Shown here piece by piece: positions 33,875 through 38,350 of a stretch of 64,000 bases of DNA. Location: NCBI RefSeq assembly GCF_023028225.1, contig NZ_CP095482.1, positions 2,108,001 to 2,172,000 of the forward strand. Reading direction: 5' to 3'. The position numbers were made by a program, and so were the translations under genes. Within the stretch, counting starts at the first letter, position 1, and every line of letters begins with the position of its first letter. The DNA comes from Halorientalis litorea. GTDB lineage: Archaea > Halobacteriota > Halobacteria > Halobacteriales > Haloarculaceae. The notes under the pieces are model-generated. The model had not been told where the DNA came from, did no database searches, and saw only the letters and a list, made by a program, of their open reading frames with translations.

Positions 33875-35452
33875 ATGTCTCAACAGCGACGGATGGGCGG
33901 CCAGCCCATGTTCATTCTCAGCGAGGATTCCCAGCGGACAGAAGGGAAAGACGCACAGACATCCAACATCGCCGCCGGGAAGGCCATCTCCGAGTCCGTC
34001 CGGACGACGCTCGGCCCGCGCGGGATGGACAAGATGCTCGTTTCGGACTCCGGCGATGTTGTCATCACGAACGACGGCGCGACCATCCTCGACGAGATGG
34101 ACATCGAGCACCCGGCGGCCCAGATGATCGTCGAAGTCGCCCAGACCCAAGAGGACGAAGTGGGCGACGGGACGACGACGGCCTCCGTACTCGCGGGCGA
34201 ACTCCTCAAGCAGGCCGAGGACCTGCTCGACGACGACGTACACCCGACGACCATCGTCGAGGGGTATCACGGGGCCGCGGAACTCGCACAGGAGGCCATC
34301 GTCGCCGAGACGCTCGATGCGGATGTCGACGAGGACACGCTCCGGAAGGTCGCCGAGTCCTCCATGACCGGCAAGGGGACCGGCGATGTCGCCGCCGCCG
34401 ACCTCGCCGAAACCGTCGTCGGTGCCGTCCAGCACGTCGACACCGACGCGGGCGTCGTCCGAGACAACATCACCGTCCGCTCCCAGACCGGCGGCTCCTC
34501 CTCCGCGACGGAACTGGTCCAGGGCGTCATCGTGGACGAGGAACCCGCCCACGAGAACATGCCCCGGACCGTCGACGACGCCACCATCGCCGTCGTCGAC
34601 AACGACGTCGACCTCAAGGAGTCGAGCATCGACGCCGAGTACAACATCACCGATGTCGACCAACTCGACCAGGCCATCGCGGCCGAGGAAGAGGAACTGC
34701 GGGGCTACGTCGACGCCATCGAGAACGTCGGCGCGACGGTCCTGTTCGTCACCGGCGACATCGCCGACCGCGCCGCGGCCTTCCTCGCCAAGCGCGGCAT
34801 CCTCGCCTTCGAGAGTGTCGGCGACGACGACGCTAAATCCGTCGCCTCCGCGACCGGCGCGTCCCGCGCCGGGTCCGTCGAGGACCTCGAAGAAGCCGAC
34901 CTCGGGTCGGCCGACACCGTCAGCGTCGAGAAGTTCGGCGACGACGAACTCGCCTTCGTCGAGGGCGGCGCGGCGGCCGACGCCGTCACCGTCTTCGCCC
35001 GCGGCGGGACCGAACACGTCACCGACGAACTCGAACGCGCGCTGAACGACGCCCTTGACGTCGTGACCGCCGCACTCGACGAGGGTGGCGTCGTCCCCGG
35101 TGCCGGCGCGACCGAAATCGCCGTCGCCGCACACATCCGCGACGAGGCGGCGAGCATCGAGGGCCGCAAGCAGTTGGCCGTCGAAGCGTTCGCCGACGCC
35201 GTCGACGTTCTCCCGCGCACCCTCGCGGAGAACACGGGCATGGACCCCATCGACGCGCTGGTCGACCTCCGCTCCGAGTACGAGAGCGAGGACCGCGCCG
35301 GCGTCATCTCCGAGGGCCAGACCGGCATCATCGGCGAGCCGCTGGACTACGGCGTCCTCGACCCCGCGGCAGTCAAGCGCGAGGCCGTCGAGTCCGCGAC
35401 CGAGGCCGCGACGATGATCGTCCGCATCGACGACGTCATCGCTGCGGAATAA
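33875..35452 (+). CDS. Thermosome (group II chaperonin) subunit, Cct3-like
   Basis: This 525-residue chaperonin subunit has the ATP-site motifs [19 protein letters not shown] and [15 protein letters not shown], with the C-terminal [12 protein letters not shown] and [11 protein letters not shown]. It ends at IDDVIAAE without the Gly-Gly-Met tail of Cct1/Cct2-type subunits, which is how the Haloferax Cct3 type also ends. It folds cytosolic proteins in an eight- or nine-membered double ring; other subunits are outside the window. Apparent paralogue identity (Cct3) is an inference from the tail. Confidence 0.92.
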
Positions 35453-35892: not shown

Positions 35893-35944
35893 TTAGGCCC
35901 GCCTAAGATTCGTAAGAGATTTACATGCTTTAGGTAGACCTAAA
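35893..35944 (+). promoter_or_regulatory. Two DtxR-type metal boxes at the DUF5059 promoter
   Basis: TTAGGC-cc-GCCTAA (35893-35906) and TTTAGGT-ag-ACCTAAA (35929-35944) are perfect palindromes of the TTAGG-N4-CCTAA kind bound by DtxR/IdeR/SirR-family metalloregulators. The second ends three bases before the ATG, covering the probable start site of a leaderless mRNA. The first lies just upstream of the TATA-like GATTTACA (35918-35925). Iron (or manganese) control is inferred. Confidence 0.65.
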
Positions 35945-35947
35945 AAT

Positions 35948-38350
35948 ATGGAGCAGACGAGACGAAACTGGCTACGAACGGCATCGGCCGCAGTCGCGGG
36001 CGTCGCGCTCTCCGGCTGTGCAGCACTGAACGGCGGCGAAAATGGGGGAGCATCGACACAGGTGGACGCAAGCGCGACGGATATCGGTGTGGTCTCCGAG
36101 TGGAACGCCATTCGGACGCGACTGCGGGACCCGGTTATTTTGGGCCACGCCGGAGAGTTCGCCGCCGGAGCGACTGTCGTCGGCGATATTTTCGAGCGGT
36201 TCGAGACTGCCTCCGGGCAACACAACGCTCACGAGGCCCTCGAAGAGACCAGCGAGGAGAGCTACGAGGGGTTCGAGGACGCACTCGGAACCCTTCGGAC
36301 AGAACTCGAAGCCGAGAACCTCGACGGTGCCCACGACGCGATGAAGACGGCCGACGGACACCTCAAGGAGGCACAGACTGCGAAGACGAACGAGCAGACG
36401 GTCAAGCAACTGTCGATGCTCGTCATGGGGACACACGCCGAGGACGCAGCACTGCTGGTCGCACTCGGGGTCGACGACGACGCCGAGCACGAAATGTCTA
36501 AAATTGGAGACAAGTTCGAGGAGAAACACTACGAGATGGTCGCCGAGGTAGACGAAGCGGCAGCGGACCAGTTCGTCGACGCGATGGACCGTGCCGCCGA
36601 GAACGTCGGAGCAGACTCCGAGGCGTCCATCAGCGCGGCACACGAGGCATTCGGTGCGGCAACGCAAGGATTGCACGCGCTCGCGGGCGATTCGGTCGCA
36701 GGTGCCGGACACATGGCCGCGCTGCAGGCCCGTGGCTGGGACGGTGCGGCACTCGGCCGCCTCGGCGGCCCCTCACAGTCTTACGCTCATGCGGCGGCAC
36801 TGAACGACTACAGGGCGACCGCACGGGACGCACAGTGGCTCTACGAGGCTGGAAACGAGGCGGCTGCTGGGGCACTCGTCCAGCGGGCACTCGGACGGTT
36901 CGAGACAGCTAGTGCCCACGACCCGCTTGAAGAAGCCAACCACGATGCGTACGAATCATTCGAGGGCGGACTTGAAACGCTCAGTGGTGCCATCGAGAAC
37001 GGCGAAGACGCCGGCGTGACCGAGGCCGTCGGGACAGTCGAAGACGGCGTCAGAAGCGGTATCACAGCTCTCGCGTCGGATGACCAGTCTGCCTTGCTCG
37101 AAGCAGGGTACACCAAGACGAGAATCGAAGATGCATACGAGCGGTATCAACGCGGCGCGCCCGGGCGGGCGGCGGAAATCGCTCAGAACGTGTTCGCGGA
37201 CTTCGAGGCCGACGCCAGTGGCTTTCACGAGACACTCGAAGAGACCGACGGGGAACTTTACGAGACGTTCGAGGACGAACACCTGACGGCCCTCATCGAA
37301 GCCTTCCAGAACGAGAACGATGAGGCGGCCACGACTCACGTCGAAGGCATCCGCGACACACTCCTAAGCTTCGAGACGGCACTAGGGTCACGGCCGGTCG
37401 TCAGCGGCGTCGAGAGCGGGTACATCACTGCACGCCTTCGGGACGCCGTCGTGCTGGACCAACTCGGAGCGACGGAGCGTGCCCAGACGGTCGCGACGGA
37501 GGCATTCGGTCACTTCGAGGCCGGTGCGGGTGGCTTCCACGAGGCAATCGAGGAGGCAGACCACGAGACCTACGAAGCCTTCGAGGGGGCAGTAGAGAGC
37601 CTCCAGAACAGCCTCGGGACCGACGGCGCGACGGACGCACTGGAGACCGCTACTGCGCGTGCGACCGACGCCGGGTACGCCGTGGTCGCGGCGGGAAGCG
37701 GGGGGTCCGGCGGAACACAGTTCGTCCAGAACGTCTTCGCGCACTTCGAGAACGCGGCCGTCCACGACATGCTCGAAGCGGCTGATACCGACGCCTACGA
37801 GTCCTACGAGGCGGCACTTGACTCGTACGTCGAGACGCTTGACTCCGGCGGCGACGTACAGACGGCTGCTGGCCAGTACGCCGACGCGACCCTGCAAGCG
37901 CAGTTCGCCGTCGCCGGCGCGCCCGATGAGGCACCGGTCGAGGCGAACGCTGAAAGTGGCCAGGGTACGACCGAGACGGAGCTCGAAGGTGGGCCAAACG
38001 TCGTCGAGGGCGTTCCCGACGATGCCGACCACGTGGTCGACATGACCGCAGTAGCGTTCGAACCCGAGGAAATCACCATTTCGCAGGGAGATACTGTCGC
38101 GTGGAAACACGTCGGCGGCGAAGCGCACAATGTGGTGGCGTACGAAGACGAGATTCCTGCCGACGCCGACTACTGGGCCTCCGGCGGGTTCGGCTCAGAG
38201 GAAGCCGCCCGTGAGGGCTGGGAGAACGGCGAGGGTGCCGTTCAGTCCGGTGAGGCCTACGTGAAGACGTTCGAGACGACCGGTACGCACGGGTACTTCT
38301 GTACGCCACACGAGGCGGCCGGCATGGTCGGTACTGTCGTCGTCGAGTAA
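35948..38350 (+). CDS. DUF5059 lipoprotein with C-terminal blue-copper (halocyanin-like) domain
   Basis: This 800-residue protein starts with a Tat signal (RRNWLR) and lipobox SGCA, so it is a membrane-anchored lipoprotein outside the cell. The middle has at least five copies of a helical motif, FxxFExAxxxHxxLEExDxxxYExFE, near residues 81, 314, 415, 519 and 597, with conserved His and Glu that could bind metal. The last 100 residues form a plastocyanin-like domain with copper ligands His727, Cys785, His788 and Met793. The promoter holds two DtxR-type boxes. A role in iron acquisition or redox under metal limitation is inferred; the function is not known. Confidence 0.82.
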   Translation: MEQTRRNWLRTASAAVAGVALSGCAALNGGENGGASTQVDASATDIGVVSEWNAIRTRLRDPVILGHAGEFAAGATVVGDIFERFETASGQHNAHEALEETSEESYEGFEDALGTLRTELEAENLDGAHDAMKTADGHLKEAQTAKTNEQTVKQLSMLVMGTHAEDAALLVALGVDDDAEHEMSKIGDKFEEKHYEMVAEVDEAAADQFVDAMDRAAENVGADSEASISAAHEAFGAATQGLHALAGDSVAGAGHMAALQARGWDGAALGRLGGPSQSYAHAAALNDYRATARDAQWLYEAGNEAAAGALVQRALGRFETASAHDPLEEANHDAYESFEGGLETLSGAIENGEDAGVTEAVGTVEDGVRSGITALASDDQSALLEAGYTKTRIEDAYERYQRGAPGRAAEIAQNVFADFEADASGFHETLEETDGELYETFEDEHLTALIEAFQNENDEAATTHVEGIRDTLLSFETALGSRPVVSGVESGYITARLRDAVVLDQLGATERAQTVATEAFGHFEAGAGGFHEAIEEADHETYEAFEGAVESLQNSLGTDGATDALETATARATDAGYAVVAAGSGGSGGTQFVQNVFAHFENAAVHDMLEAADTDAYESYEAALDSYVETLDSGGDVQTAAGQYADATLQAQFAVAGAPDEAPVEANAESGQGTTETELEGGPNVVEGVPDDADHVVDMTAVAFEPEEITISQGDTVAWKHVGGEAHNVVAYEDEIPADADYWASGGFGSEEAAREGWENGEGAVQSGEAYVKTFETTGTHGYFCTPHEAAGMVGTVVVE

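Follow-up and report, generated by a model that had tools for sequence, protein, structure and literature searches.

The DUF5059 copper protein is probably part of haloarchaeal iron capture, because its gene stands under the same tandem switch as siderophore genes. The gene lies in a stretch of 64 kb from Halorientalis litorea, the whole of which is referred to as the window. The preferred reading, to which a probability of about 0.5 is given, is that the product is a surface protein of iron starvation that binds iron and performs one-electron chemistry on it, working in an EfeO-like manner. On the basis of its conservation before orthologues and its sharing with siderophore loci, the TTAGG-N4-CCTAA palindrome is read as an iron box, and the DUF5059 gene as a fixed member of its regulon.

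The family itself is already known and named. In the available text of the respective sources, a DUF5059 homologue of Haloferax mediterranei is annotated as halocyanin hcpG (PMC9240420; for example, HFX_RS06015) and HVO_1228 of Haloferax volcanii as halocyanin hcpE (PMC9051519). The gene in the window is an ordinary representative of this HcpE/HcpG type (PF16502; HVO_1228, HFX_RS06015), with the same architecture and no structural difference. The earlier note on this DNA had stated that no function was assigned. This stands insofar as the full-text literature search found no functional study of DUF5059, HVO_1228 or hcpG, or of a halocyanin with iron or siderophores; it does not stand for the naming, since the halocyanin annotation exists. 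What goes beyond the known HcpE/HcpG description is the conserved iron-box promoter, the sharing of the box with siderophore loci and a five-fold invariant signature in the protein, which were not found in the literature searched.

Paired palindromes before the DUF5059 gene and its orthologues

Two perfect TTAGG-N4-CCTAA palindromes precede the gene, 37 bp apart from start to start. The distal iron box TTAGGCCCGCCTAA covers 35893..35906 (no strand assigned), from -55 to -42 relative to the ATG. The proximal iron box TTAGGTAGACCTAA covers 35930..35943 (no strand assigned), from -18 to -5. A BRE/TATA-like element on the + strand (CGTAA ... TTTACAT, 35911..35926), the putative promoter, lies between both boxes, with the TATA-like TTTACAT read at 35920-35926. 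The arrangement described in the earlier note, with two perfect palindromes 37 bases apart around a TATA box, is thus borne out by the window sequence. The same note had placed one box over the start site. The start codon is not covered; the proximal box lies between the TATA-like element and the start codon and ends four bases 5' of the ATG. No other perfect box occurs in the window, and the reversed pattern is found 0 times.

Conservation of the boxes was determined in two sets of upstream regions, which have species in common and so do not count as independent. The first set was taken from 28 named orthologue loci and comprised 27 upstreams after L052, a fragment without a 5' end, was left out. 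In 27/27 the proximal box was found at -17 to -22, perfect in 24 and otherwise with a single mismatch; a second box, with up to two mismatches allowed, was found in 24/27. The second set was drawn from 292 genomes of the class Halobacteria, 77 of which matched DUF5059 (76 above the cut-off) and 215 of which had no match. It held 74 upstreams, without the fragmented or split genes of G096, G145 and G189 and without the window itself (G000), and G206 contributed two genes. Start codons were set by rule (an in-frame start followed by RR), so that the offsets, but not the box, depend on the rule. All 74 upstreams carried the proximal box, which was perfect in 68 and had one mismatch in the other 6, and in 63 of the 74 a second box was located 33-37 bp upstream of it. 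The 56,314 bases of this set contained 86 perfect boxes, with 0 in the reversed control, and A/T-rich positions recurred at -9 to -7 from the proximal box. Short DUF5059 homologues (L121-L126) likewise have the box. The absence of boxes in front of orthologues had been named in the earlier note as evidence against its reading; the box was present throughout both sets.

The same box across the genome and at siderophore loci

A genome search for the box had been suggested as a check. It was run on the whole genome (3.21 Mb), where the exact box occurs 17 times and the reversed control 2 times. This excess indicates that the box is not a chance pattern. The 17 sites form 14 promoter groups, with tandem pairs at the DUF5059 gene and at two places on contig C2. 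Several sites adjoin iron genes. One lies next to an ABC ATPase gene that has two SUFBD_core genes behind it (SufC-B-D). In another cluster, a Peripla_BP_2 lipoprotein, a FecCD permease and an ATPase (FecE) each have their own box. Further boxes are adjacent to an SBP_bac_6 lipoprotein with a TOBE_2 ABC ATPase downstream, to DUF7547 beside a ferritin-domain gene, to a metallo-beta-lactamase-fold gene and to an RGP-family gene. Part of these neighbours is clearly iron-related, and the remainder is unexplained.

Other genes behind the box were also observed. A YqcI_YcgG gene and an isochorismatase-like ORF (identified by eye) with an iron box stand beside the FecCD/ATPase cluster (L006, 11295-12797). 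Two DUF7552+DUF7551 paralogues follow iron boxes (L010, 4001-4891; L011, 7563-8664), one of them with a tandem pair, and look like an uncharacterised iron-regulated family. At 12072-14454 of L011 (G000:C2:34000-53900), a tandem pair of boxes spaced 34 bp accompanies an MmgE/PrpD gene, and a single box accompanies a ComA-like gene of the phosphosulfolactate synthase type; these metabolic genes are perhaps iron-sparing or metallophore-related. An iron box is also found 12 bp 5' of a Gluconate_2-dh3-like gene, which is followed by a GMC oxidoreductase (L005, 4001-6185).

Two DtxR proteins with both Pfam domains are encoded in the genome. Of these, the 145-aa protein encoded close to the suf genes (L017) is the likeliest candidate for the regulator of the box. 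The other contains a FeoA domain, and its gene adjoins that of a GDT1-type cation/proton antiporter (L018, 1501-2891). This domain and this neighbour suggest manganese, and the two genes are likely a manganese pair. Like the system described here, the FerR/Idr/TroR-type DtxR regulons of haloarchaea have a palindromic iron box in front of uptake genes, suf genes and siderophore genes; a ferR regulon signal is cited before all fhu genes in the available text of PMC11349517.

The box was then compared with siderophore biosynthesis loci, represented by 20 IucA_IucC loci hand-picked out of 78 matching genomes. A perfect box was present in 20/20 of the sampled loci, with 55 in total in 282,020 bases and 0 in the reversed control. 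The layout seen at DUF5059, a box pair spaced 34-36 bp with a partner of at most one mismatch, was found in 16/20. Many of these boxes lie 3-70 bases 5' of an ORF that resembles, by eye, a siderophore-operon gene or a lipoprotein gene.

Published transcriptomes agree with an iron regulon. In the available text of PMC7714728, HVO_1228 rises by +4.2 log2 upon knock-down of the splicing endonuclease (endA), and genes for siderophores and Fe(III) transport make up most of the rest of the top-ten list. In that of PMC9051519, it changes by -2.92 log2 in a cas1/fen1 double mutant and is filed under 'Other', while the lowered list also includes iucA, bdb, dat and an Fe(III) binding protein. The two studies concern unrelated mutants, iron is the topic of neither, and in both HVO_1228 co-varies with siderophore genes. 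The main text of the H. volcanii iron-starvation proteome (PMC11349517), in its available part, does not mention HVO_1228. The iron-type regulation proposed in the earlier note is strongly supported by the orthologue boxes, the sharing with siderophore loci and the published co-expression, and control of the DUF5059 gene by iron starvation is considered very probable.

IucA_IucC was present in 31/75 DUF5059 genomes and 46/217 others (odds ratio 2.6, p 0.001, kinship ignored), counted without G096 and G145 for DUF5059 and without G179 for IucA_IucC, which are fragments or borderline. Strict dependence on self-made siderophores was considered and rejected, with 44/75 DUF5059 genomes, including that of the window, having no IucA_IucC. 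These counts bear on the alternative that survives best, in which the protein is a receptor or reductase for iron-siderophore or heme, so that its repeats hold such a ligand and not free iron, with reduction of the ligand by the copper domain. The tandem box common to siderophore loci and the co-occurrence above chance speak for it. However, the 44 genomes show independence from a self-made siderophore of that type, and the conserved acids of the repeats point to a metal instead of heme. This alternative is judged unlikely.

A copper domain joined to conserved helical repeats

The gene for the DUF5059-cupredoxin lipoprotein spans 35948..38350 on the + strand and encodes 800 aa. The N-terminus MEQTRRNWLRTASAAVAGVALSGC contains a twin arginine and the lipobox Cys24, features that we take to mark a Tat lipoprotein signal (35948..36019, + strand; C24 in 26/28 rows). 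DUF5059 (PF16502) covers residues 48-663 with 613.4 bits against a cut-off of 25, over positions 2-619 of the 619-position profile, and the Pfam Copper-bind domain covers residues 697-800 with 71 bits. The plastocyanin-type cupredoxin (37991..38347, + strand) carries the type-1 copper ligands H727, C785, H788 and M793, which are identical in 28/28 orthologues. It aligned with plastocyanin 2plt in VIA-align at Z 14.8 and rmsd 1.1 over 91 residues. In a PDB sequence search with the full profile, all of the 60 matches listed of 71 were cupredoxins. A single PADLOC match at E 0.027 was disregarded. The earlier note's description of an 800-residue Tat lipoprotein, with a cupredoxin complete in its four copper ligands, is confirmed.

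Three of six short DUF5059 homologues were read by eye (L127, L128, L129) and have three repeats each. Their axial copper residue is His in L127, Gln in L129 and Met in L128; the change from Met to His or Gln should shift the redox potential.

The window gene is flanked by a thermosome-like gene (33875-35452, from its translation) and CinA, and housekeeping synteny is found in 8 of the 28 loci, the window included. No transporter operon was detected beside the 28 loci, where only DUF5059 itself and its antisense frames recur widely.

At least five His/Glu helical repeats had been noted before. The comparison of 28 sequences agrees with this and gives five canonical repeats with an E/H/E/Y/E signature and one degenerate repeat, all on the + strand. 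The signature is E86/H95/E99/Y106/E110 in repeat 1 (36203..36277), E319/H324/E328/Y335/E339 in repeat 3 (36902..36964), E420/H427/E431/Y438/E442 in repeat 4 (37205..37273), E524/H531/E535/Y542/E546 in repeat 5 (37517..37585) and E601/H606/E610/Y617/E621 in repeat 6 (37748..37810), each in 28/28 orthologues. Repeat 2 (36515..36577) is degenerate and has no conserved His. The canonical layout starts with a Glu that ends the first helix; then come a His, a Glu at +4, a Tyr at +11 and a Glu at +15. An Asp of the preceding helix may add to this signature (D294, D395 and D499 in 28/28, D61 in 25/28); counted along the predicted helices, it is estimated to be level with the Tyr and the last Glu. The distance from the His to the last Glu is estimated as ~22 A on one straight helix, so all five residues need not share one site.

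Invariant positions in the helical region are strongly enriched in these residue types. They number 71 of 624, and E, D, H and Y account for 36 of the 71; the rate is 36/162 for E/D/H/Y vs 35/462 for the other residues (p 2e-6). AlphaFold2 with the 28 orthologues predicted a chain of helical bundles, a low-confidence linker and then the cupredoxin, with mean pLDDT 88.5 and pTM 0.57 for the full protein.

The repeats bear directly on the second function offered in the earlier note, an iron-sparing electron carrier, in which the copper protein would replace an iron carrier at the membrane and the helices would serve as scaffold or docking arm. Such a role fits a cupredoxin with all four type-1 ligands under iron-box control, and halocyanins are described, in the available text of PMC11218638, as possible electron donors that replace c-type cytochromes in haloarchaea. 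However, the helical region makes up three quarters of the protein, and five invariant repeats exceed what a scaffold needs. The lack of a DUF5059 match in 215/292 class genomes also suits an accessory uptake protein over a core carrier. Because a carrier would have no need of the conserved E/H/E/Y/E repeats, this role is regarded as improbable, and the other function offered, extracellular metal oxidation or reduction coupled to uptake, appears the more plausible of the two.

The repeat chemistry likewise weighs on copper handling within the iron regulon, that is, the scavenging or delivery of copper for other proteins under iron shortage. The cupredoxin domain is consistent with it, and a copper link of the NosL family, to which HVO_A0549 belongs, is presumed here. 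Table 1 of PMC11349517, as available, lists a 13-fold rise of HVO_A0549 under iron starvation of H. volcanii. However, the signature of the repeats consists of Glu, His and Tyr, and none of the Cys or Met residues in the helical region is invariant across the 28 orthologues; iron suits such a set better than Cu(I). Copper handling is considered very unlikely.

The bundle model was also compared with known structures. The VIA-align list for the full protein was filled by the cupredoxin, and the bundle part was therefore refolded alone (residues 302-586, pLDDT 94.8, pTM 0.91) and searched. Only common helical-bundle arrangements were retrieved, with a best Z of 12.6 in VIA-align, and the best matches were generic (catenin, vinculin, designed bundles, PsbQ). 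A mechanical or adhesive surface protein of vinculin/catenin-like tandem bundles with structural conserved residues, to which the best Foldseek matches (alpha-catenin, vinculin) and high VIA-align places of talin and catenin would point, is given hardly any weight, since the scores are within the range expected for any helical bundle and the copper site and the iron box are both left unexplained.

Relation to EfeO and proposed mechanism

By analogy, EfeO/EfeM would be the nearest functional parallel of the DUF5059 protein. EfeO shares an exported cupredoxin joined to an all-helical part, and iron-regulated operons. It differs in that the DUF5059 cupredoxin is C-terminal, not N-terminal, and has a full type-1 copper ligand set. 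In the available text of the sources, the model of the EfeO cupredoxin includes a copper site as well as an acidic one (PMC9174327; PMC3143127), and the HxxE motif, Tyr and acidic residues of the helical M75 domain of EfeM (Tyr, His, Glu, Asp) are proposed as metal ligands (PMC9174327). Imelysin-like proteins (Peptidase_M75) share tandem four-helix bundles, iron regulation and an unknown ligand (PMC3143127, available text), whereas DUF5059 has up to six bundles instead of two and matches neither their motif nor their family HMM.

Membership in the EfeO family was rejected, and EfeO is kept as a working analogy. Peptidase_M75 (PF09375) had no match in the window protein at E up to 1. The M75 motif GxHxxE does not occur in the repeats, where His and Glu are four apart (H-x3-E) in all five. 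Profile comparison of E. coli EfeO with DUF5059 by hhalign gave nothing (probability 0.2 or less). In Foldseek, EfeO 7wgu_B came at rank 14 for the bundle model (E 0.5, prob 0.75) and at rank 20 the imelysin 3n8u_B (E 0.71), both as weak matches among generic bundles. Imelysin entries were not among the best 50 VIA-align rows listed, which is not evidence of absence. At the genome level, the FTR1 permease (EfeU type) was found in 0/292 class genomes, including the genome of the window, and M75 in 0/292; each search matched 4/14 control genomes.

The preferred reading, surface iron binding with one-electron chemistry, can be described as a sequence of steps. With ample iron, a repressor of the DtxR family (the 145-aa protein is the most likely one) would occupy both boxes around the TATA-like element and block transcription. 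When iron is scarce, the DUF5059 gene would be expressed. The protein would be exported by the Tat route, and a lipid attached to Cys24 would anchor it at the membrane. Iron, perhaps in the ferric state, is the most likely ligand of the five E/H/E/Y/E sites in the tandem bundles, and the type-1 copper domain would move single electrons to or from the bundle-bound iron. The captured iron, reduced or oxidised, would then be handed to the ABC transporters of the iron-box regulon. The identity of the metal, the geometry of the site, the direction of the electrons and the hand-over partner are what we infer in this model. The protein would thus do an EfeO-type job with a different helical domain and a reversed domain order. 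Weighing against this reading are the failed profile match to E. coli EfeO, the generic structural matches of the bundles, the lack of FTR1 in 292 class genomes, the silence of the iron-starvation proteome's main text on HVO_1228 and the lack of a transporter gene conserved beside DUF5059.

A bolder proposal is held only tentatively, as something possible and rather doubtful. DUF5059 proteins might have arisen in archaea as a counterpart of EfeO: a modular iron machine at the cell surface that needs no self-made siderophore. Each bundle would be one iron unit, with three in the short and six in the long forms, and one type-1 copper, its axial Met swapped for His or Gln in some lineages, would drive the redox step that feeds ABC uptake.

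The finding places a haloarchaeal copper protein without assigned function, widespread in its class (77/292 genomes), in an iron-uptake regulon. This placement concerns a class in which neither FTR1 nor M75 was found. The gene is present in the model organism Haloferax volcanii (HVO_1228). The protein may be a possible answer to how iron is handled at the surface in archaea without IucA/IucC siderophore synthesis.
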